Below, piece after piece: positions 1,480 to 55,509 of a DNA stretch of 64,000 nt. Below the pieces are notes generated by a model. That model was not told the origin of the DNA. It searched no databases and worked only from the letters and a program-made list of their open reading frames with translations. The position numbers and the translations under genes are program-made. Source of the stretch: Candidula unifasciata (taxonomy: Eukaryota; Mollusca; Gastropoda; Stylommatophora; Geomitridae); assembly GCA_905116865.2 (NCBI GenBank), contig CAJHNH020007734.1, positions 40,001-104,000 of the forward strand. The letters run 5' to 3'. Within the stretch, counting starts at the first letter, position 1, and every line of letters begins with the position of its first letter.

Positions 1480-4400
1480 TATGTGTGCCCCCAGGGTCCA
1501 TCAAAAGAGGGAAATTGAAATTATGGACCCAATCAATTAGATACTAAGGGTGACGACCTTTCTAGCCCCGTACTGAGATTTTCGCCCAGCTGCCGGGTTG
1601 GCTCTGTACATGTGGAAAGAGCTTCACGGGGTTGCATGGTGTGAGAACTCATGCCAGAAGGATGGAATGCGAGGGTGCTGTACACAGTAAACGCCGTCGC
1701 AAAACCACTACTCCTGGGGTAGTTTCTGAGTCGTTAGGGAACGACGGGCATGGTATACCCCACTCGCCCGGAGAGGCCCATGACGTTGACTCCGGAGGCA
1801 AACTTTTGATCATTCCTGAAGAAGTGCGTTCAAAGATCAGGTTCCCACCTGCGAGCGATAAGATGTCGTGGTGTAAGTTGGAAGGTACACTATGTGAGAA
1901 ACTAAATGATGATTTAAAAACAGAAGTCGTTAGGTGATAAGCTTATAAGGTTAGGTAATGTAATATACGAGCACTGTTCCAACGAGTTCGGGACAATCAA
2001 AAAGACGCCCGCCGGGCTTCAAGCAGAATACGAGCAGGAGACGAAGGGATATTCAGAAGTGGCTGGCAGACAAGAACGGGAGGGGCTACACGATGTCTGG
2101 TTGCACCTGAGAAACAGACACAGTGCCCTCTGTCGCGCAGAGCGTTTTTGTACTTCTACTTCTTTCTATGAGTGCCGTTCACAATACTTTCTATTACTTG
2201 ATTAATTTTGTAATAACAGACGGAGAACCAAAAGGGAGCGAGAGAAATTCTTTAGGGACCCGTTCCAGTTTGCCCGAGGTCTATTCGAGCAACCTAAGTC
2301 TGGGACTCTGGTTGCTAGTAAAGAGGAGCTTGAGTCATTTTTACGCAAAATGTACTCTGACAAGAACAGGAATGAGCCTCTTGATGACAATCCAGAGAAC
2401 CTTAGCGGCCCCAGGCAGTCTGAGTTGCCGAAAGTATCATTTAAAGTGATACCTCCCTCTTGGTTTGAGGTCGAAGAAGTTGTGAGGAGAGCTAGCGGCA
2501 TGTCCGCCCCAAGTCCGAATGTTGTTCCGTACGTCCTGTACAAGCGTTGTCCGAAAGTCCTACGAATGCTTCACCGCTTATTGAGGTTTAGCGGGAAGCC
2601 GAAAGCACAAATGTCCGGAGTGGCAACGGGCCAACGGGGTCTATATTCCCAAAGAGCAAGACTCGAATAGTCTTTACCAATTCAGGCCTATCTTGATGTT
2701 AAATGTTTAGGGCAAAAAAATCTTCTCGGTTATGGCTCGTGGGCTCACACAGTAAATGATGGCGAACAAGTGCATCGATATGAGTGTTCAGAAAGGTGGA
2801 ATCCTGGGCGTCCCTGTGTGCCTTAAACACGCGACCATGATATGGTAGTCTATCCAGAGGGCCAAGCATGAGAGAACCCAGTTGCACGTAATATGGCTGT
2901 TCCCCATAAGCTACTGTGGCAGGCCCTTCGCATGTTTCACGTACTGACACAGATCAGCGAATTCATCGAGCAATATTTCTCTAAGTTCGCTTTGCGCTTC
3001 TCTACCTCGACGTTTACTACGAGATTGACTGAGCTCCAAGTTAGGATAGCTATGCGGTGTACGATCTCGCTAAAACTGATCGTTATGTCTATGCAGGTCA
3101 TGTTAGACGGGGCGGCCTGCTTCGGACAGGGCCTTCAGATTGGGGACCACTGGATGCCGCCACTACGTTATTTATGGATGACACAACTATAATCACGGGA
3201 AGTGAGGAATCTGCTCAAACGATTCTGAAAAGATTGGCTGAGGTGGTCTAATGGAGCGGTATGCAATTCAAACCGCAGAAGTCTCCCATGTATGTTGATT
3301 CTAAAGATCGTCCAGCCGCTGCTCATCTACGAAGTGACGATGACTGCAGTGAAGATGATAGATCGCAATATCAACACAGCCATGAGGAAATGGTTGGGAG
3401 CACCGCCTTGTCTGACTGGTGTGTCTCTGTAGTGTAAACAGGCTAAGCTAGTACTCTAGTTCAAATAAAAAACCGAAGAGTTTAAAGTCGGCAAAGTAAG
3501 ACTCGCCATGCGTGAGTCTTCAGACCCAAGTGTCACCGCTGTCCAGCCCGCTTCAAAGACAGGCATGAAGTGGAAGGTCCTAGATGCGATCGAATCTGCT
3601 CAGAATGCACTAAAATTAAGGGAGGTCATGGGTTTCACTCGAACCGACCATCGAGGCCTAGGGCACGGGATAGTCAGTTGGTGATCCAAAGCCACAGCCA
3701 AAGAGCGCCGAGGCATGGTAATACAGCAAATCAGAGAAAACTAAAACGAGATGAGGGTGCAGAAAGCAGGCCAACAGTCGCAGCAAGGTCAGTAGATCAG
3801 CTTAGAGAGCGCTTTGGCACGAGTACTCACATGGGGTGAGATCTGGCGAGTGGCCTGGCTGCGACTGAGTTTTATCGTTCGGTCTGCCTACGATGTATTA
3901 ACATCCGGTGTCAACATGACAAAGTGGAGTGCGGCTAACGACCTGACATGCCCGCTATGCAAAGATAAACAGGCTCTTGAGCATGTACTGTCCGCGTGCA
4001 GGAAAGTCCTAGGTCAAGGCAAGTTACTTGGCGCCACAACAAGGTGCTGAAAGAGTTAGCGGCTGTTGTGGACCAAGCTAGGACGAGGGCCAATGCGAGG
4101 GCTAGTCCTACCGTCGTCCCCGTGCGCTTCCTTAAGTTTATAAAGGTAAATTCAACAAAGTTTTTATCGATGCTTGACTGTGCGAGCGACTGGTTACTGG
4201 CGGTTGTCCTGCCTGCACATGAAAAGTATCCTGAGTTAATCCGGAAGACTGGCCTGCGACCCGACATAGTTCTCCACTCTGCGGAGAAATGTCAGCTCAT
4301 TCTGATTGAACTGACCATGCCGTGAGTCGCAAATTTACGAAAGCCATATGTACAACCTCGAGAAGTACTGTGATTTAGCGGCTAGTCTGAGGAAAGACGA

Positions 4401-5035
4401 AGCGTACACATTAAAAATCTTCGCCGTCGAGGTAGGCGCAAGAGGTCTCGTTTCCACTTCCCTTTACAATGGGATTAAACAACTAGGCTTGCGAGAAAAT
4501 GAACGCAAACGAACACTAAAACAATTGGGTGAGTTTGCTAAGAGGGCCTCGAGCTGGCTCTGGACACAACAGAGCGTCGTGGGGGATTGGCTTCGGTGAG
4601 CTGGTCCGGGTGTCTAGTAGAAAAAAAAATTATCTTATTCCTTAAAGTATATCATGTCTAAATTGTCTGCCGGTGCCCCTCTAGCACCTGTCAACAAAGA
4701 CCAACATGTGTCCGGTAAACCAAACGTTGGCTTGTCACTTGGTCGTCCAGGTAGACAGACTGCTTTAATTATTCTACCGAGACGTCTTCATATCTCACAG
4801 TACCTTTTGCAAAGTCACCAATTCGTCTTGTCCCTGTCCGAAACATCCGGTAATACGTGCAGCAGGAGTAACCAATCCTGAGCCTCACGAACTCAGGTGG
4901 GCCCACTCTGAAAATGTCTAGGAGCTCGTCGGCCAAAACATTTGTCGATAAGAGATTACTTCTACTGATGATTGGTAGACTCCTGCTGTCAACGCTACCC
5001 TGTTGAGTTTCTTCTTATTCTTATTGTACCCATTT
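1480..5035 (+). mobile_element. R2-like non-LTR retrotransposon, decayed copy 1
   Basis: Colinear with the intact copy at 49.8-53.7 kb from the 5' leader (tgtgcccccaggg at about 1481) to the 3' UTR (the ctggtccgggt motif at ~4600 through ~5035). The zinc-finger region (~1605-1675), RT region (~2480-3250), CCHC knuckle (~3950-4005) and endonuclease region (~4250-4400) are all recognisable but broken by stops and frameshifts. Compared with copy 2, about 230 bp is missing near 3280 (copy 2 positions ~51631-51862), and a 60-bp stretch is gained at 2153-2212. Both ends being retained shows this was a full-length insertion and not 5' truncated. It lies just downstream of a SINE-1 copy. Confidence 0.85.
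2153..2212. mobile_element. 53-bp mini-insertion with 7-bp target duplication
   Basis: In copy 1 the sequence corresponding to copy 2 around 50530 is split by 60 extra bases. The direct repeat ttttgta stands at 2146-2152 and again at 2206-2212. The inserted core (ttctacttctttctat then g-agtgcc) closely matches 13651-13686, just left of the Helitron 5' end. It has no coding capacity, and its class is unknown. Confidence 0.55.
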
Positions 5036-21619: not shown

Positions 21620-22735
21620 AGAAGACATCTTTATTGTGAGACTAATTTGTGAAAAATGTAGAGAATACAACGTAGATCTTCATGCTTGCTTCATTGATTA
21701 TTGCAAGGTATTTGATTGTGTCAAAAATCAGAAACTGTGGACTATTATGAGAACTATGGGGTTTCCAGCGCATTTAGTGCATTCAATTGAAAATCTGTAT
21801 CATGAACAACAAGCAGCCATCAGAGCACCTGGTGAAACATCGGATTGGTTCGAGGTGCAAAAGGGAGTAGTGAGACAGGGGTGAATTCTCTCGCCATACC
21901 TATTAAATATTTACGCAGAAAATATAATGAGAAATGTCAAAAATGACCAGAATTGTGACAGTTATGTTCCATTCAAAATTGGTGGCAACCCTATTCCGGA
22001 ACTTTGCTACGCAAATGACACAGTCCTCCTTTCGAACAGCGTAACGTAGAATAATACATTTAATATTGTCTGTTCAAAAGAACAGTGAAGATAAAAATCT
22101 GTTTTAAATTTAAAGAAAACGAAAATAATGTCCACAGAAAAAAACTGGCCGTCACCCGAAAATAACAACTAAAGATAAAGCAATTAAAAGGAGGATGGCC
22201 ATAACAATGCAACGATTAAACAGCAATAAAAGTCTATGGTTAAGCACCAGCAAGGAGATCAAGATTAGTAATTTGAGAGCATGCATCTTCCCTGTAGCAA
22301 CCTACGGATGTGAGTCGTGGACTATATCCCAATACTTAAGAAAGAGAACAGGGGCTTTTAAGGTGAAATGCTATAGAAAGATTCTCATAATATCTTGGAC
22401 AAAGAAGAGGAAACATGCTGATATCTTTAAAGATCTGAAAATCAAGGAAGATTAGCTAATAAACAGCATCCTATCTCAAAAACTGAAATGTGGTGGTCAT
22501 ATCATGCGCCACGACGGATTGGACAAAAAATAATAGCAGAAGGGATGGTACCAGGAATGATTGGCAGGGGCCGACCAACACGACGATGGGAACAGGAAAT
22601 AAGTGACTCATTGAGTATGAAAGTACATTAGGCAGGAGAGCTGGCCAGAGACAGAGTTTCTTTTGGGCAGACCGTGATGAGAGCAACTTTCTCCAAAGAA
22701 CCTGCCATTGTCCGTAAAAGAGCAATAAAGGTGCC
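21620..22735 (+). mobile_element. LINE family B, copy B1, downstream half
   Basis: Contains RT blocks RLICEKCREYN, ACFIDYCKVFDCV (motif A, D conserved), VVRQG then ILSPYLLN (motif B, broken by a stop) and a decayed motif C (CYANDTVLLSNS). These are followed by MQRLNSNKSLWLS, ATYGCESWT and KCYRKILIISWTKKRK, the standard C-terminal blocks of this LINE group. Copies B2 (30.1 kb) and B3 (55.8 kb) share the last ~500 bp. Ends near 22735 at the family 3' end (gaacctgcc). Confidence 0.8.
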
Positions 22736-34847: not shown

Positions 34848-34880
34848 ACTTCGCATCGACTTAGCCACAGAGCCGACTAT
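34848..34880 (-). mobile_element. SINE-1 head only
   Basis: The minus strand reads gtcggctctgtggctaagtc then gatgcgaagt, matching the first ~30 bp of SINE-1 including the A box. The body is not recognisable beyond it. A 5' end without its 3' end is unusual for a SINE, where truncation normally removes the 5' side. Confidence 0.6.
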
Positions 34881-36428: not shown

Positions 36429-36650
36429 AAAAAAAAAAGCGTATCCTTTACAGGACTTTGCAGAACCAACCCCGGCAGCCCCTGGCTGTTGTGTTGTTTC
36501 TCTAGGCAAATTTAGGTCTAGTAGTTTGCCATTGTTGAGGGTCGGGCCCCTGAATCCACTGCCGAAACAAACGCAAGGCGCATGGCCCGCAGCTTGGATC
36601 GAACCCGGTACCCCGGCATTACGAAGCGTTCGCATCGCCACAGAGCCGAC
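36429..36650 (-). mobile_element. SINE-1 copy
   Basis: Full-length minus-strand copy: the head gtcggctctgtggcgatgcg ends at 36650, the B box is ggttcgatccaag (~36604-36592), and the body ends aaaggatacgc followed by a run that is A12 on the plus strand. Near-identical in layout to 1061-1282 and 48082-48309. The 3' homopolymer is T-rich when read in SINE sense, not A-rich. Confidence 0.85.
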
Positions 36651-36864
36651 AAACATTCACATGACAAGTCTAAAAATTTAACCAGTATTGTACAGCAGCC
36701 GACCAATTGCGGATCAAAACATAGAAATATGTCACACATAAAGCAGCACACTTGGGCCTTGCACACCCTGAATAGTCCAGTGCCCCGTGAGCTGTGGATT
36801 TCCCCTGGATTTCCCGTGTTTGGGGTAACTTAACAATAAAACACCGACTTTTCCGCTCCTACTC

Positions 36865-46080: not shown

Positions 46081-46917
46081 ATGAAATTAGGAAAAAGTGG
46101 CTAGGTGACACGCTAACACCGTTTGGTGATATAATATATGATCACTGTTCCCGCGAGTTCGGGACAGTCGAGAAAACGTCACGTCAGGGAAAAGCAGAAG
46201 GCAAAGGGCCATTGAGAAGTGGAGAGCAGACAAGAACACACTCAGAAAACGGTTCAAAGACCGCTACAGGCAGCGAACGGGAGGAACTCTACAAGGCCTG
46301 GTTGCACCTGAGAGCCAGATATAGCACCCTCTGCTGCTGCGCGTTTCTGTAACAACAAAAGGAAAACAAAATGAGAACGAGAGAAACTCTGTAGGGACCC
46401 GTTACAGTTTGCCTGAGGTCAGTTTGAGCAACAGAAGTCTGGGTCGGTAAAAAAGAGCTGAAGTCACATCTACTGAAGATTTAATCCGATCGGACAAAGA
46501 ATTAACCTCTCAATGACAACCCAGAGATTTCCAGCGGCCGGAAGCGGCTAGAGTTGTCAAAGGTACCGTTTAAAACGATTCCTCCCTCTTCGTCTGAGAT
46601 CAAAGAATATGTGAAGAGAGCTAGCGGCAAGTCCGCCCCAGGGCCCAACGATGTACTGTACGTTGTGTCCAAGCGCTACCTGAAAGTCCTCCGAAATCTT
46701 CACCACTGGATAAGATTAGCTTGGCGCCGAAGACACATATGTACTCAGTGGCAGAGAGCCGACGGGGTCTACATTCCCAAGGAGCGAGACTCCTGGAATC
46801 TGTCATAATTCAGACCTATATGTTGTGGGCAAACTATTCTTCTCGGTTATGGCTCGCAGGCTCACACAGTATGTGATGGCGAACAAATACATCGATACGA
46901 CTGTTCCGAAAGGAACC

Positions 46918-47704
46918 GCCTTGCCTCAACCAAATACACTCAATTGGAGCATTCCAAATAATACATCAAAATCTAATGAAAAATCTAAACTCTCCAACAT
47001 ATTAAAAGAGTACACACAATTACGAATAAAGGTCACAAACGTCCGCACACGTCCGCCCATCTCACTGACCTAGAGGCACTGACATGGACACGAATTCACT
47101 TTCGGCGGCAGGTCACACATGGGTCCCACAATTCGTGGAGCCGTTGTTATCCGTTAATTTCAAGAAACGCTAGCTTAGTTGGTTAAAAATACTGCGTGGC
47201 GACTCTATCTTACTGCTAACGAAAAGAAATCACTAGAAAAAATAGGGACCTGGCGATATGTCATATGGCTTTAAAGCACAGTTGAGAATAAACGAAGTTT
47301 TTAAATGTTGTTTATGAATGAACATACATCACCAACATCCAGGATCTTCATAAAGATAACAATCGCACCATTCAACTTACAGGGTCCTGGAAATAAAAGT
47401 CATAAAATTCAAAGAATTAGTTTGTTTTTCAGATAAGATAGTGGGCACATACGTCACTGAAACGTTTTATCGTACAACTTTCAATATATGTAGCACTTTA
47501 TTATACTTTATTCTGCAGGTCTACGTTGACGAAGTCATCAGATAAAAAGGTAATTATAGTTGTTACTAAATATATGCTATGTTCGTAGGCCTTGGGTGTG
47601 CAATGAGCACAGTGTTAATTTCTGAAGACGCTTGATTTTTTGGGGTCGAATGATGCAAAATGCAATTCAAGTCAAAGAAGTCCAAATTTATGTCAATCCG
47701 TTAG
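46918..47704. other. Unknown segment replacing RT core of copy 3
   Basis: About 790 bp with no match to the R2-like family or to other repeats in the window. It carries no motif and no clear flanking duplication. Confidence 0.5.
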
Positions 47705-48081
47705 GGTAAATTTGTGGCAAAGCTAAGGATCCCCACGGTTCTGGAAAAAACATGTGAAGAGTCTCAGCCGCGTCTACGATTCGAAGTTATCTGATAGGGC
47801 GGAAGTCGGGCGTAAGCAAGAGTAACTGCCAACAGGTCTGCTTGCTATAGAGCAATCCCGTCTGACTGGAAAGTTCAAGGTCTGGTGTCTCCAATTCATG
47901 TTGATTCCAAAGCTTCTCTGCCTCTGATAGTGTGCGAAGTAAGCACGAGGTCTGTAAAGGCACTGAAGCGAGAAACCAACATCGCAATGAGGAAATAGTT
48001 CGAAGCGCCTCCTTGTCTGACCGACATAGCCCTATATTGTAAGGAGGCTAAGCTGGTAGTTCCGTTTAAGTCAATAGTTAG

Positions 48082-48309
48082 TTGCGTATCCTTTACCTGA
48101 CGTTGCAGAACCAACCCCAATAGCTTCTGGCTGTTGTGTGTTTTTCTATGCAAATTTACGTCCAGTAGTTTGCCGTTGCCACTGGACGGTCGGCTTTCTT
48201 GATACCACTGTCGAAACCAACGCAAGGCGCATGGCCCGCAGTTGGGATCGAACCTGGCATCCCGACATTACGAAGCGTTCGCATCGACTTAGCCACAGAG
48301 CTGACAAGC
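48082..48309 (-). mobile_element. SINE-1 inserted in R2-like copy 3
   Basis: Minus-strand full-length SINE-1 (head gtcagctctgtggctaagtc near 48305, B box ggttcgatccc at ~48258-48248, body end aaaggatacgc at ~48084). Flanked by caatagttag (48072-48081) and caatagtag (48310-48318), a target duplication. Excision restores the R2-like reading PFKSI then EEFKIG seen in copy 2. Confidence 0.85.
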
Positions 48310-49162
48310 CAATAGTAGAAGAGTTTAAAATCGGTTTGGTAAGACTCGCAATGATGCTGCGCGAGTTTTCAGACCACACAGTAGTCGCTGCCCAGCCCGG
48401 TGTAAAGATGCGATAGAATCTGTTCAAAAAGCACTGAAATTGCGGAAAGCAATGGTTTAGACACAAACCGACCGAGACGGCCTAGGGCAAGAAAAAGGCA
48501 CATGGTGTCCAACGCCTACTCCATAGGGCGTAGATGCTTGGTAACACAGAAAATCAGGGATTCCAAAAACGAGATTTAAGTCCAAAAATCTGCCCATCGG
48601 TGGCAGCAAGGCCAGTGGATTAGCATCGAGAACGCCTTGCCATGAACACTCAAATGCGGTGAGATCTGGCGAATGGCCCCGCTGCGTCTGAACTTTGTTA
48701 TTAGATTGGCTTACGACGTGTTGCCCTCTGCTGCCAACATGGCCAAGTAGGATGCGATCACCGACCGGACATGTCCCCTATGCTGAGCTAAGCAGACGCC
48801 GAGTACGTATTGCCCGGCGTGCAGAAAAGCTCTAGGCCAGATACGACATACAAGGCGCAACAATAAAGTCCTGAAAAAGTTAGCGGACATTTTGGATAAA
48901 GCCAGGATAAGGGCTAACGCGAGGGTCAGTCCTAACGCCGCCTCACCAACTTCATGCGTTTCCTCAAGGCTTTGTTGATTCCCGAGGGTAAAGTCAAAAA
49001 TGTCATATGTGCTCTATCGATACGTGACTGTGCGAAGGACATGTTACTGGCGGTCGAGCTGCCTTGTTTTTAGAAGTACCCCAAATAAATCTGAAATGTG
49101 ATCCTAATAGAGCTCAGTGTGTCTTACGAGTCGCGGATAGACGAAAATCACTCGTACAAGCT

Positions 49163-49790
49163 GTCACGAAACGATCTCAGTGATTCCAGAAGTTAGTACT
49201 TGTAATAAGTTCTTCTGGTTATATAGAGAGAGGATCATATTTACTCTGCCCTTCACCGTAATATTACTTTAAACCAAATTGATTTAAATGTTTCCAGTAA
49301 TTCTCCGAGACAAAGCCACTGCGCTTTGTTTAAAATTACATAACACTACGTAATACAGCCCGCTGGTTCAGACTAGGGATGTTAGGTTTGATTCTCACGC
49401 CAGTGTCAGAATGTTATCTCCTGACCACACTGTAGAGGCCAGCGAACGGGGAACTTAGCATCACACCTGAGCTGGACCGTAGGTCATAAAGATAACCTAA
49501 CACGAATTTAGTGGACTCTAGACATTGAGGCGATGAGAAGTTTAAAGTTTAACACGTCAGTGTAATTCTGGAGAGAACAGGTGTGTGGCAATTAGGAATG
49601 ATTTATCTTGGTCAAGGTCGTACTGTAGGCCGTTCACTGTGAGTGACAGGTCACTGGTTAGCCAAGTTGATCTGATAGTTACCTCAGAGGCGTGGCTTAA
49701 GTCATCGTCTTGAGGGTTGGGTAGAACCCAGTAAAGGGAGGAGTTTAATTTGGACAGATGTCGACTGTGGACCGGGTTGATCACCCCTAA
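49163..49790. other. Left part of the 5.3-kb insert, upstream of the R2-like frame
   Basis: Between the break in copy 3 and the first in-frame codon of copy 2. It may be the 5' UTR of copy 2, but copy 1 offers no alignment left of ~1480, so the element boundary is undefined. A short minus-strand ORF here lacks motifs. Confidence 0.45.
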
Positions 49791-52700
49791 CACAGTATAA
49801 TACCTCCGATTTCGTACGACCACAATGAAATATGCCCCCAGGGCCCTCCGAAAGGGGGGGAGAATGAAGGGCCCAATCTGATTGATACCCTCGTTGACGA
49901 CCTTGCTAGCCCCCGGACTGAGACACTCGCCCAACGTCCGGGCTGGCTCTGTACATGTGGGAAAAGCTTCACGGGGTTGCATGGTCTGAGAACGCATGCC
50001 GGAAGAATGAAATGCGAGGGTGCTCCACGCAGTAAACGCCGTCGCAAAACTACTACTCCTGTGGTAGTTTCTGAGTCGTTAGGGAACGACGGGCAGGGGG
50101 AACCCCACTCGCCCGGAGAGGCCCATGACGTCGACTGCGGAGGAGCACCTTTGATGATTTCTGAAGAAGTGCGTTCCAGAATCAGGTTTCCACCTGCGAG
50201 CGAGAAGGTGGTGTGGTGTAAGTTGGAGGTTACATTATGTGAGGTACTTAAACAAACTCGAAACAAGAAGCCGCTAGGCGACAAGCTTACAAAATTTGGT
50301 GATGTAATATATGAACACTGCTCCCGCGAGTTCGGGACAGTAGTAAAGGCACAGCCGGGTGCCAAGCAGAATACTAGCAGGAGGCAGAGGGACATTCTGA
50401 AGTGTCGGGCAGACAAGAATGCCCTCAGAAAACGGTTCAAAGCCGCTACGGGCAGCGAACGGGAGGGGCTGTACGAAGTTTGGTTGCATTTAAAGAACAA
50501 ACACAGTGCCCTCTGTCGTGCCGAGCGTTTCTGTAACAACAGACGTAGAACCAAAAGGGAGCGAGAGAAATTCTTTAGGGACCCGTATCAGTTTGCCCGA
50601 GGTCTATTCGAGCAACCGAAGTCTGGGACTCTGGTTGTCAGTCAAAAAGAACTTGAGCTACATCTAAGCAAGATGTACTCTGATAAGAAGAGGAGAGAGC
50701 CTCTTGATGACAATCCAGAGATCCTTAGCGGACTCAAACAGCCTTCGGTGCCGAAGGTACCATTTAAAATGGTACCTCCCCTTTGGTCTGAGGTTGAAGA
50801 TGTTGTGAAAAAGGCCAGCGGCAAGTCTGCCCCAGGTCCGAACGGTGTCCCGTACGTTCTTTACAAGCGTTGCCCGAAAATCCTAAAAATGCTTCACGTC
50901 TTGTTGCGACAAGCGTGGATCCGCAATCACATATGTCCAGAGTGGTCAAAGGCAAATGGGGTCTACATTCCCAAAGAGCAGGACTCGAAGAGTCTTTCCC
51001 AATTCAGGCCCATCTCGCTGTTGAATGTTGAGGGTAAGATATTCTTCTCAGTCATTGCTCGCCGGCTCACACAGTATCTGATGACTAACAAGTACATAGA
51101 TACGAGTGTTCAGAAGGGTGGTATTCCAGGCGCTCCTGTGTGCCTTGAACACGCGACCATGATATGGGAGGCTATCCAGAGAGCCAAGCATGAGAGAACC
51201 GATTTGCACGTTATATGGTTGGACTTAGCCAACGCCTACGGGGCAGTCCCCCATAGGCTACTGTGGCGAGCCCTTCGCATGTTTCACGTACCGACACAGA
51301 TCAGTCAAATGGTCGAGCAATATTTCTCTAAGTTCGCTTTGCGCTTCTCTACCTCGACGTTTACCACGAGGTGGACTGAGTTGCAGATTGGGATAGCTAT
51401 GGGGTGTACGATCTCACCTATACTGTTTGTCATGGCAATGCAGATCATGTTAGACGGGGCGGCCGGCTACGGACTGGGCCTTCAAATAGGGGATCACTGG
51501 TTACCGCCACTGCGCGCATTTATGGATGACACGACTATTATAACGGGCAGCGAGGAGTCTGCCCGCACGATCCTGAAAAGATTGGACGCGGTGGTCCAAT
51601 GGAGCGGTATGCAGTTCAAACCGCAGAAGTCAAGGAGTCTGTCAATCCATAAGGGCAAGGTGTCGGCGACCAGTTTTACGGTGGCAAGGAACAAGATCCC
51701 TACGGTTCTGGAGGAACCGGTGAAGAGTCTCAGTCGCGTTTACGATTCGAAGTTATCTGACAGAGCGGAGGTCCGGCGAATACACGAGTCACTGGCTACA
51801 GGCCTGCTCGCGATCGAGCGATGCAGGCTGATCGGAAAATTCAAGGTATGGTGTCTCCAATTCATGTTGATTCCGAAGCTTCTATGGCCACTGCTAGTCT
51901 ACGAGGTGACGATGACTGCAGTGGAAACCATGGAAAAGAAAATCAATACAGCCTTAAGAAAGTGGATTGGTGCACCGCCTTGTCTGACCGACGTGGCTCT
52001 GTATTGTAAACAGGCTAAGCTGGTACTCCCGTTCAAGTCAATAACCGAAGAGTTTAAAGTCGGCAAAGTTAGGCTCGCCATGCTTTTGCGCGAGTCCTCA
52101 GACACAAATGTCATCGCTGTCCAGCCCGCTCTAAAGACTGGTCAGAAGTGGAGAGTCCTCGATGCGATTGAATCTGCTCAGAACGCACTAAAATTGAAGG
52201 AGGTAATGGGTTACACACAAAGCGACCGTCGAGGCCTAGGGCACGGGAAAGTCAATTGGTGGTCAAAGGCCTCAGCCAAAGAGCGCCGAGACATGGTGAT
52301 ACAAACGGTGAGGGACAACGAAAACGAGGTTCGGGTCCAGAAAGCAGCCCAACAGTCGCAGCAGGGCCATTGGGTCAGCCTGGAGAGCGCATTGCCGAGA
52401 ATACTCACATGGGGTGAGATCTGGCGGATGACCCCGCTGCGACTGAGCTTTATCGTTCGTTCGGCGTACGATGTATTACCGTCCGGTGTTAACATGGTTA
52501 AATGGTCTGCGACCAACGATCCGACTTGCCCGTTGTGCAAATCAAAGCAAACTCTTGAGCACGTCCTGTCCGCGTGCAGGAAAGCTCTAGGTCAAGGCCG
52601 CTATACCTGGCGCCACAACAAGGTGCTAAAGGAGTTAGCAGCCGTTGTCGACCAGGCTAGAATGAGGGCTAACGCCAGAGCCAGTTCTAGTATCGTCCCC

Positions 52701-53665
52701 ATTCGTTTCCTCAAGGCTGGGCAGGTTCCTAAAGGTAAGGTCAACCAAAACGCATTCGCTCCATCTGCGCTAGACTCTGCGAGGGACTGGTTACTGGCGG
52801 TTGATCTGCCAGGACATGAACGGTATCCCGAGTTGATCCGTAAAACCGGCCTGCGACCGGACATCGTTCTCCATTCTGCGCAAAAACGGCAACTCATCCT
52901 GATTGAGTTGACGGTCCCGTTTGAGTCGCGGATGGAGGAGAATCATTTGTATAAGCTCGAGAAATACAGTGATTTAGCAGCCGGTTTGAGGAGAAACGAG
53001 GCTTACACAGTGCGGGTATTTGCCGTCGAAGTGGGAGCGAGAGGCCTCGTTTCCACTTCGCTCTACAATGTGGTTAAAGAGTTAGGATTGCGCGGTAATG
53101 AACGAAAACGGGCACTCAAAAAACTTGGTGAGGTGGCCGAAAGGGCATCCAGCTGGCTTTGGACGCAGCGCAACAACGTAGGGGACGGGCCTCGGTGAGC
53201 TGGTCCGGGTATCTAGTGGAAAAGAGTTTCTTATCCCTTTGAAAAGTCCATCGTGTACGAATTGTCTGCCAGTGTTCTTCTGCCAACTGCTAATAAAAGT
53301 CCAACATGTGTCCGGTAAACCAAAGTAAGCTTGTCGCTCGGTCGTCCAGGCATGCGGACTGTTCTAATTACGCTGCCGTGGCGGCTTCTTATCTCACAGT
53401 ACCTCCTTCGAAACCACCAAGTCGTCTTGTCTCTGGCCGAAAGTATAACACCATCCGGTAATTCTGTGCGGCGGGGAAGCAGCCCTGAGCTTCATGAACT
53501 CAGGTGGGCCCACCTCCGAATACGTTTAGGAATCGTGGGCCGAAACGTGTGTCGAAAGAGGATAATTTCTACTGATGACTGTAGATCCCCGCTGTACTTG
53601 CTCCCTGTGAGTTTATTCTTATTGGACAATAGATTGATACTTATACTGTGGGCATCGTAGATTTA
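49791..53665 (+). mobile_element. R2-like non-LTR retrotransposon, young copy 2
   Basis: Single-ORF element with a zinc finger, RT, CCHC knuckle and restriction-like endonuclease, followed by a ~465-bp 3' UTR shared with copy 1 (ctggtccgggtatctagtgg, aacatgtgtccggtaaacc, tgaactcaggtgggcccac) and copy 4. Shared sequence fades around 53650, so the 3' end is approximate. Domain layout is that of the R2 superfamily (possibly the HERO branch, not separable by eye). No 28S rRNA sequence flanks it. It lies within the 5.3 kb that splits older copy 3/4. Confidence 0.85.
49977..53198 (+). CDS. R2-like polyprotein: zinc finger, RT, CCHC, REL endonuclease
   Basis: 1073 codons, uninterrupted. The frame is open upstream to 49791 but has no ATG there. 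49977 is TTG and the first in-frame ATG is at 50007, inside the zinc finger CTCGKSFTGLHGLRTH (then RMKC), so translation probably starts at a non-AUG codon upstream. RT: KSAPGPNG (~283-290), motif A WLDLANAYG with D416, motif B GIAMGCTISPILF, motif C FMDD with D517/D518, then KSRSL. Knuckle C851-x2-C854-x7-H862-x4-C867. Endonuclease PD 961-962, E977 in IELTVPFE, then KLEKY. The product would nick a chromosomal target and prime cDNA synthesis there. Length and order match R2 proteins (~1100 aa). Catalytic residues are all present, so activity is possible but unproven. Confidence 0.88.
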   Translation: MHGLRTHAGRMKCEGAPRSKRRRKTTTPVVVSESLGNDGQGEPHSPGEAHDVDCGGAPLMISEEVRSRIRFPPASEKVVWCKLEVTLCEVLKQTRNKKPLGDKLTKFGDVIYEHCSREFGTVVKAQPGAKQNTSRRQRDILKCRADKNALRKRFKAATGSEREGLYEVWLHLKNKHSALCRAERFCNNRRRTKREREKFFRDPYQFARGLFEQPKSGTLVVSQKELELHLSKMYSDKKRREPLDDNPEILSGLKQPSVPKVPFKMVPPLWSEVEDVVKKASGKSAPGPNGVPYVLYKRCPKILKMLHVLLRQAWIRNHICPEWSKANGVYIPKEQDSKSLSQFRPISLLNVEGKIFFSVIARRLTQYLMTNKYIDTSVQKGGIPGAPVCLEHATMIWEAIQRAKHERTDLHVIWLDLANAYGAVPHRLLWRALRMFHVPTQISQMVEQYFSKFALRFSTSTFTTRWTELQIGIAMGCTISPILFVMAMQIMLDGAAGYGLGLQIGDHWLPPLRAFMDDTTIITGSEESARTILKRLDAVVQWSGMQFKPQKSRSLSIHKGKVSATSFTVARNKIPTVLEEPVKSLSRVYDSKLSDRAEVRRIHESLATGLLAIERCRLIGKFKVWCLQFMLIPKLLWPLLVYEVTMTAVETMEKKINTALRKWIGAPPCLTDVALYCKQAKLVLPFKSITEEFKVGKVRLAMLLRESSDTNVIAVQPALKTGQKWRVLDAIESAQNALKLKEVMGYTQSDRRGLGHGKVNWWSKASAKERRDMVIQTVRDNENEVRVQKAAQQSQQGHWVSLESALPRILTWGEIWRMTPLRLSFIVRSAYDVLPSGVNMVKWSATNDPTCPLCKSKQTLEHVLSACRKALGQGRYTWRHNKVLKELAAVVDQARMRANARASSSIVPIRFLKAGQVPKGKVNQNAFAPSALDSARDWLLAVDLPGHERYPELIRKTGLRPDIVLHSAQKRQLILIELTVPFESRMEENHLYKLEKYSDLAAGLRRNEAYTVRVFAVEVGARGLVSTSLYNVVKELGLRGNERKRALKKLGEVAERASSWLWTQRNNVGDGPR

Positions 53666-54476
53666 CCTCATAGTGCCGCCAGCAGGCCACAGACTCAGAC
53701 CTACCGTTGAAAAGTACTTTCTCACTGGCTGAGTCGTGTTTGGCATTTGCTGGAAAGTTCCCAGCGCCCATGTGACGATCAGTCCATGAAGTAGCCTACA
53801 TTGTGTTAGACTCGGCCAGCTGGGAACGAGGTGGAGAACGAGAACAGTACCCACGGCTGTCAGAGGTTCTATGATAATTAAGTTACGTCTCATCATGTGT
53901 TATGGATGTAAACTTATCACCACCATTATCCATTCACTCTAATCTTAGGTGCTCAGTTATCTAGCTGAAGCCCCTCATTATCACCATACCATCACTATCT
54001 GTTATAACAATAATGATGACTAATGTCATACTCTGATTGCTAGGTTAATAAATCAAATATATGGTCTTATAATGCATCAGTTTTTGTAATTCCAAATGTC
54101 TGTTCTTACATGTTTAATTAAACTGTTAGGATAGAATACCATTTGGTGGGGGCTCAAATAATAATGATAATAATTCTTTAATTGTTCATAATAACACCGG
54201 GAGAAGGTAGATGACGGAGGAATCACTTGCCCTGTCTAATAATTCATTTAGTATAATGATAGACATCTAAAATTCCTTTTCTTCTCTTGTGGGTACCAAG
54301 TGCAGCTAATGTTAATGTACTTAACGAGCCAATATGGCTGTTTTCTTGGATATCCAGGACTTTGTCTGAGAGCAACATAGCTCAGATTTTAGTTTGGTTA
54401 ATCTGGTGGAGGGAATGTGTTGAGAGGAACATCCCTACTCAACATTATAAACATTTTATCCACCGCGTCACGTCAC
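53666..54476. other. Right part of the 5.3-kb insert
   Basis: About 800 bp after the shared 3' UTR and before old copy 4 resumes at 54477. It contains no match to the R2-like family and no supported gene. Confidence 0.45.
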
Positions 54477-55010
54477 ACAAGCTCAAAAAGTACTGTGAAT
54501 TAGTGGCCAGTTTCAGGAACGATATGGTGTGCACAGTAAAACTCTTCGCCGTCGAGATATGTGCAAAAAGGTTTATCTCCACCTCAACATACAATATACT
54601 AAAACAACTGGGCCTGCGAGGGAAGGAACAATAACCGGTAATAAAACAACTGAACGAAACTGATGAAATGGCTTCGAGCTGGCTGTGGACGCAACGGTTC
54701 GTCATAGGGGATAGCTTTCGGTAGGCTGGTCCGAGCCCGTAGTGGAATACATCTTTTCATCTAAAAAAGCTAAAGTATCCCACCAGTGTCTCTCTGAAAA
54801 TTGCCAAAGTATGTCTGATGAACCAGCTGTTCATTTGTCACTCTGGTCTTTATAACATCAAATCTCACAATACCTGTTGCAAAGCAACCATTTTGTCTTG
54901 CCGATTGTCCGTTAAAGGCAGCAAATGTCCGAGGCCTGGAGTCGTGAACCAGGTCGGCCCACCCTCTGAGACTGTCTAGGAGGGTAATGGGTAGAAACAA
55001 TTATCAAAGG
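54477..55010 (+). mobile_element. R2-like retrotransposon, old copy (right part)
   Basis: Starts abruptly at HKLKKYCELVASFRN, the codon where copy 3 stopped, and runs through FAVEICAKRFISTSTYN, LKQLGLRGKEQ and ASSWLWTQR into the 3' UTR (gctggtccgagcc to ~55010). The 7-bp repeat acaagct stands at 49156-49162 and 54477-54483. It is degenerate (taa inside ...KEQ). Confidence 0.85.
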
Positions 55011-55509
55011 GGGAAGTAAAGTTAGGCACTGAAGGTGTAATATCTTAGAATGACTAGAGACCATCTTGAAAATGTTAATGTTTCACTAACTACTAAGGGG
55101 CAATTTTACTAACTGTGTGTTTTCCTGTCAGTGACAGTCTTCTGCATTGCTGCAATCTGAAAGACTTTTCTGGGCGTCTATTTTCACTGTTCTTCTAAAC
55201 TCACTAATTAACCATCTCCCTACTTACCAACGATTTCTTGTAAAGTGACGATATTTTTTTCATGACTACCTGGACGCATTTCCAACAACGATAGTAATTG
55301 TCAATGCTATAGGTAAACTTGGTTCTTGGAAGGCTCAGCGCAGTATTAGAATTTGTATAGACATACCCGTTAGAAGTGGAATAGATATACTTGTCTTACT
55401 CGTGCATCAGCTAATAAGACATTGGTGGGGCAAAGGACAGGTCCCAGCAGATTAAACAATTCCTGCGATATAACTATGTAACGGAATAAGGTGATATAAG
55501 TAACTACAA
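55011..55509. other. Unassigned DNA
   Basis: No supported feature. Confidence 0.45.

Follow-up and report, generated by a model that had tools for sequence, protein, structure and literature searches.

We analyzed a 64,000-nucleotide stretch of the genome of the snail Candidula unifasciata (contig CAJHNH020007734.1, positions 40,001 to 104,000 of the forward strand), hereafter called the window, in which an old copy of an R2/HERO-like long interspersed element (LINE), copy 3, is interrupted by 5314 bp of DNA containing a young relative of the same family, copy 2. A third, diverged family member, copy 1, lies elsewhere in the window and served for comparison (Table 1). Taken as a whole, our data are with high confidence best explained by a nest of three layers at this locus (a LINE, a solo long terminal repeat (LTR) and a second LINE), and by the formation, in the family of copy 2, of head-to-tail dimers whose two units derive from the same or identical templates.

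A solo LTR splits the old element

Copy 3 matches copy 2 in four blastn blocks of the same order and strand (46092-46913, 47714-48076, 48305-49063 and 54479-54747), and when the two sides of its break were joined, the alignment crossed the junction without a gap, so that the colinearity expected in an earlier note on this DNA was borne out. Its break is sharp, since neither side continues the family beyond chance: the sequence past 49162, beyond the left part, and that before 54477, ahead of the right part, scored no better than random window sequence (p = 0.22 with 1198 nulls and p = 0.66 with 1236 nulls, respectively). Copy 3 stops at 49161 and resumes at 54483 without loss, and the DNA in between holds copy 2 with its open frame of 1135 codons, so that the observation of the earlier note is confirmed.

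The genome search covered 1.34 Gb in 7176 contigs. The right flank of copy 2 belongs to a repeat of which there are at least 40 good copies, its matches stopping together with the query at 54476, and at all seven other fetched loci (L002-L008) the two flanks of copy 2 are directly joined, overlapping only in one TTGGACA. This repeat has the ends TGTCACG...CGTCACA or close variants of them, which form a short inverted repeat, and is bordered by perfect 5-bp duplications at nine of the ten loci at which both ends were read, counting the window. Of these nine duplications, two fall in simple repeats and carry little weight, and at L013 the duplication is missing. Direct pairs of the repeat are found at L009 (2193 of 2228 positions identical) and at L010 (2252 of 2277 identical), in both cases around a 2.64-kb interior with sites, called by eye, that resemble a primer-binding site and a polypurine tract. 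The window carries the short kind of this LTR (1444 bp), as do L002-L005, while extra sequence inside the LTR is present at L006-L010 and L012-L014 (about 2.3 kb in all). Between the 2.2-2.3 kb LTRs of L009 and L010, the interior has one long open frame of 524 and 675 codons, respectively. The one interior frame tested for gag or pol had no Pfam match at E ≤ 1, so that the element is probably non-autonomous. This repeat is like known solo LTRs in its TG...CA ends, its 5-bp duplications, its occurrence in LTR pairs and its primer-binding-like and polypurine-like sites, but the single long interior frame, without a Pfam match where tested, sets it apart from LTR retrotransposons that carry gag and pol.

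The 7-bp repeat ACAAGCT, to which the earlier note had drawn attention, is indeed present at both junctions (49156-49162 and 54477-54483). The duplication proper, however, comprises only the five bases CAAGC, since the outer A and T are the last and the first base of the LTR and match the flank by chance. The insert was also considered as a DNA transposon, and local alignment found no terminal inverted repeat. A weak local match of the left flank to a diverged family 3′ end (2 of 200 shuffles, in one of three comparisons) was lost in a profile search. Copies 1 and 2 have no detected similarity outside about 49833-53639, which suggested that some 650 and 850 bp of the insert are not LINE sequence.

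The ends of the LTR and its duplication, fixed independently at other loci, match both breaks in copy 3, and the left and right parts are therefore one element. We also considered two separate old copies that met by chance, and here the divergence of the two parts, which the earlier note had taken to bear on the question, gave a divided answer. In the open reading frame (ORF), the right part differs from copy 2 more often than the left part does (91/241 compared with 491/1790, p = 0.001), and the 3′ untranslated region (UTR) on the right is clearly more diverged (Kimura two-parameter distance on the old branch of 0.48, compared with 0.24 for the left part), which is not fully accounted for. 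Both observations weigh against a single element. In comparison with copy 1, on the other hand, there is no significant excess on the right (73/241, left 491/1790, p = 0.36), nor is there one in the changes private to copy 3 (46/181, left 294/1446, p = 0.12). Across 1790 three-way columns, 16 indels were counted in the left part; the right ORF part is free of them over 241 columns and has one stop in 81 codons. Since, moreover, the junction has no gap and no overlap beyond the duplication, and both breaks coincide exactly with the LTR ends and their duplication, a chance meeting of separate copies is highly improbable.

The younger element entered the LTR and not its relative

The directly joined flanks at L002-L008, with their single TTGGACA, are unfilled sites for copy 2, whose 3′ end is moreover exact in 30 of 30 loci. 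Copy 2's target is the LTR, and not its relative copy 3. The earlier note was thus right in reading one old element broken up by an insertion into which a younger relative came afterwards, the LTR having come first and copy 2 later; its proposal that a LINE had nested in its own kind, with the endonuclease region of the old copy as a target, fails, because copy 3 was hit by an LTR element and the LTR by a LINE. Direct self-nesting, in which copy 2 would have entered copy 3 with a 7-bp duplication ACAAGCT and with the two flanks as its long untranslated regions, does account for the repeat and for the perfect colinearity. It is nevertheless almost certainly wrong, given that these flanks are joined without copy 2 at L002-L008, that they make up an LTR which has ends and duplications of its own, and that the 3′ end of copy 2 lies at 53621 throughout. 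The unfilled sites and the independent LTR thereby correct a tempting wrong conclusion, namely that of a LINE targeting its own relative.

The order of events is accordingly as follows. Copy 3 inserted first and then decayed. An LTR retrotransposon next entered it, duplicating CAAGC, and its interior was presumably lost through LTR-LTR recombination, which left one LTR. Finally, a young relative of copy 3 entered that LTR, probably by target-primed reverse transcription, duplicating TTGGACA and arriving without about 120 bases of the leader described below. With 25% of the C. unifasciata assembly consisting of LINEs (PMC8496239), nested LINEs are to be expected in this genome, and the nest by itself is ordinary.

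Copy 2 has a mean identity of 98.7% to 29 other copies over the pieces compared, and its closest protein, also from C. unifasciata, is 98% identical over 60% of its length. Its frame contains a reverse transcriptase of the non-LTR type (RVT_1, 4.5e-23), as well as a finger-like N-terminal Cys-His motif, a C-terminal CCHC motif and a PD...E motif that may belong to a PD-(D/E)xK-like endonuclease, these three by pattern only; its match to the R2 C-terminus is weak (6 bits). Among solved structures, its best relatives are R2 proteins. We tentatively assign copy 2 to HERO among the candidate clades HERO, R2, R4, NeSL and CRE, and the R2/HERO label is used here in this provisional sense.

Table 1. 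Positions of the elements, their parts and their duplications in the window.
Feature	Position	Strand	Remarks
Old LINE copy 3, left part	46085..49161	+	5′-truncated; blastn to copy 2, tblastn; end sharp; last five bases are the CAAGC duplication
Old LINE copy 3, right part	54483..55047	+	End of ORF and 3′ UTR; 3′ limit approximate
Solo LTR, whole span including copy 2	49162-54477	+	TG...CA ends; 5-bp duplication CAAGC
Solo LTR, left part, 595 bp	49162..49756	+	Starts TGTCACG; directly joined to the right part at L002-L008
Solo LTR, right part, 849 bp	53629..54477	+	Finishes CGTCACA; the repeat ends at this point
LTR target-site duplication CAAGC, left	49157..49161	+	LTR ends and 5-bp duplications at other loci
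LTR target-site duplication CAAGC, right	54478..54482	+	LTR ends and 5-bp duplications at other loci
Young R2/HERO-like LINE copy 2, 3865 bp	49757..53621	+	Lacks about 120 of the 124-bp leader; unfilled LTR sites, 3′ end, leader at nine dimers
Copy 2 open frame, 1135 codons stop to stop	49791..53198	+	Reverse transcriptase, CCHC, PD...E motif
Copy 2 target-site duplication TTGGACA, left (within LTR)	49750..49756	+	Single TTGGACA at unfilled sites
Copy 2 target-site duplication TTGGACA, right	53622..53628	+	Single TTGGACA at unfilled sites
LINE copy 1, diverged family member	1486..5029	+	Comparison copy; 76-82% DNA identity to copy 2

Within copy 3, about 800 bp without similarity to the family (46914-47713) replace some 560 bp that copy 2 has there, and a repeat resembling a short interspersed element lies at about 48077-48304, with further copies at 1061-1282 (opposite strand) and 36439-36652 and a partial one at 34850-34877. 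The stretch 21651-22040 is a distant reverse transcriptase fragment with 23% identity to copy 2.

The family is not bound to a single target

The 21 3′ flanks of non-dimer copies of the family are diverse; 20 of them start with a pyrimidine and they often begin with TTR, as does the leader, and the 3′ flanks of the downstream (B) units of dimers do so in 11 of 12 cases. These flanks are partly non-independent: L020 and L022 lie almost at one position of a shared repeat, and the flank of L031 equals that of the L092 B unit over the 16 bases shown. In two pairs of insertions (L020 with L022, and L031 with L112), the common 3′ flanking repeat is joined at an identical or almost identical point, which reflects either repeated targets or copied loci. 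We see in the family a weak target preference, with some of the targets being repeats.

A true direct self-nest exists in this genome at L032 (G000:C2390), where an older copy is interrupted in its 3′ UTR, between 53369 and 53372 (positions of copy 2), by a truncated young copy with an imperfect CTT(T)AAT duplication; at the window locus direct self-nesting is absent. The diversity of the 21 flanks, together with L032, supports the conclusion that the LINE of copy 2's family is not bound to one site, in agreement with one inference of the earlier note, that the target might not be a single site in ribosomal DNA (rDNA). As regards the canonical R2 site in the 28S gene, copy 2 lies in an LTR, the window has no rRNA sequence, and the flanks are diverse, although they were not individually matched to rDNA.

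Leader-bearing copies are nearly always the second unit of a dimer

At 9 of 30 loci of the family, a 124-bp leader begins immediately behind the 3′ end and leads into the 5′ part of a second copy. Genome-wide, the leader start occurs 501 times and the 3′ end 2330 times in exact form, and junctions of the type searched for number 436; the reversed-pattern controls for all three gave 0. The junction is fixed, TTC(T/C)TA being followed directly by TTGTACG (e.g., L017, L035 and L065-L094), and its length is equal in 98 of the 100 junctions listed, the other two being off by one base. Among the 100 leader starts listed, 95 come directly after a family 3′ end and 2 more after 8-16 bases of one. Matched by eye, 81 of them fall into listed junctions and 19 outside; of the latter, 14 are preceded by a diverged 3′ end of the family, in several cases of the copy-1 type, and 2 by the 8-16 bases only. 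Hence, the leader as a plain genomic 5′ end is rare among the leader starts listed, and leader-bearing copies are nearly always the second unit of an arrangement that consists of a truncated unit A, the fixed junction and a leader-bearing unit B. Trimers are not established, as contig C108 has three 3′ ends in a row but one junction in the junction list.

Unit A is 5′-truncated at variable points. Per base, its ends are 4.8 times as frequent as those of the first unit (31 in 29184 bp versus 7 in 31377 bp, p = 2e-5), in a comparison of two samples drawn differently in which 7 of 38 A lengths are censored and from which L069, whose A is an older, diverged piece, was dropped. Of 12 dimers, 4 have outer flanks that share words of at least five bases (null mean 1.3, p = 0.036); a further 8 of the 20 dimers were dropped because the stretch fetched for them contained no exact 3′ end of B, one of these stretches being Ns at least in part. 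These words fit, weakly, an insertion of the dimer as one unit.

Both units of a dimer probably stem from one template or from identical ones

The overlap is long in 10 dimers, and in these 32 of 7347 sites distinguish A from its own B, compared with a difference of 3.5% from the B units of other dimers. The own B is the nearest to A in nine dimers and the second nearest in one (L081), and none of 5000 random pairings was as close. When the dimers were aligned jointly, 32 of 33 A/B differences were singletons, and A and B of the same dimer share 169 non-majority bases in total (3 to 31 per dimer). A shorter comparison over about 130 bases (own 0.7%, others 1.1%) is too short to tell. Given the near-identity of A and B, the singleton nature of their differences and the shared non-majority bases, the two units appear to go back to a single molecule or to identical ones; gene conversion between them at a later time may also have contributed to their likeness.

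How the dimers may arise

We favor the reading that reverse transcription would run past one unit length, either on a circular RNA or through a jump on the same template. In its specific form, to which we tentatively give somewhat less than an even chance, this family, which encodes its own enzyme, may be copied from a covalently or functionally circular RNA, so that leader-bearing insertions would nearly always be dimers of one molecule. The enzyme would start at the 3′ end of the RNA, copy the whole unit and cross a fixed 3′-5′ joint; a second lap, which would have to displace the first cDNA and may for this reason end sooner, would then leave a truncated A beside a leader-bearing B.

Several observations weigh against this account. 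No Rfam match indicative of a ribozyme at the joint was found in L017 at E ≤ 5; a 7-base complement, considered as part of a hammerhead or hepatitis delta virus ribozyme, was set aside because complements of at least 6 bases also occur in 174 of 300 shuffles. Among the 19 leader starts outside the junction list, 1 is ambiguous and 2 come after no family 3′ end at all. The shared-template comparison covers 10 of 12 dimers, L082 and L143 being left out as their 3′ end or junction was not found in the fetched stretch. At L066 (G000:C24), B has intact ends but has lost a large internal stretch, 50913 being joined to 53398. Its A does not have this deletion, so that in this dimer sequence must be supposed to have been deleted while B was copied or later.

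Alternatively, the reverse transcriptase might, on reaching the 5′ end of one RNA, jump to the 3′ end of a second one, as R2 enzymes do in vitro (PMC11371274). A second template may end earlier, in keeping with a short A, and the data are compatible with such jumps provided that the RNA pool is dominated by a single source whenever one takes place. We nevertheless consider this unlikely, though far from negligible: the sources of A and B are never visibly different in 10 dimers, although sources differ by 3.5%, the junction has the same length in 98 of the 100 listed, and the leader is almost never a plain 5′ end, so that the jump would have to be near-obligatory.

Dimeric RNAs read from older dimers, and thus inherited as such, would explain the fixed junction and the words shared around whole dimers. 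The A/B differences should then recur, yet nearly all of them are singletons, and one continuous linear template does not predict that A ends so much sooner per base. On this evidence, inherited dimers appear rather improbable as the source. Very improbable, finally, is the insertion of later copies at the 5′ end (TTGTACG) of earlier ones, despite the TTR with which both the leader and many non-dimer 3′ flanks begin. The 5′ ends of A are without TTGTACG, their longest match to the leader start being 4 bases in seven of seven dimers and likewise in all 27 non-edge loci of the 30 (3 of the 27 being poorly readable); moreover, A and B would not share private variants.

Relation to known elements and implications

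Copy 2 resembles the LINEs of the HERO/R2 group, which have a restriction-like endonuclease, in its single frame with a reverse transcriptase and, by pattern, C-terminal CCHC and PD...E motifs, and in having R2 as its best match among solved structures. HERO contains many non-specific families (PMC4640811) and R2-Hero occurs in molluscs (PMC10294476); the near-obligate head-to-tail form is not described for the group in the portion of the literature surveyed. Like copy 2's family, the non-sequence-specific R2-like LINEs (R2NS, and BLAG of the German cockroach) are dispersed outside rDNA (PMC5035012, PMC7650587), but the sections consulted make no mention of fixed head-to-tail junctions. The R2 enzyme makes head-to-tail products in vitro and in engineered cells (PMC11371274); the dimers described here differ in that they stand at natural loci, share a single fixed junction, go back to the same template and are present almost every time the leader is reached. 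Retrozymes, too, have tandem genomic copies, which are thought to stem from circular RNA (PMC7229834, PMC7761336), but these short elements are non-coding and carry hammerhead ribozymes, whereas the family of copy 2 codes for an enzyme of its own and L017 gave no ribozyme match in Rfam. A natural self-nested or head-to-tail R2-group LINE like that of copy 2 was not found in the accessible parts of the open-licence literature, and may exist elsewhere.

Reverse transcription of LINEs is usually thought to stop at or before the 5′ end of the RNA. The dimer result on copy 2's family therefore matters more than the nest: the dimers suggest that an R2-group LINE routinely passes the 5′ end of its RNA on the same template. 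Each dimer also provides an internal clock in the comparison of A with B, and the circularity of the template is directly testable.

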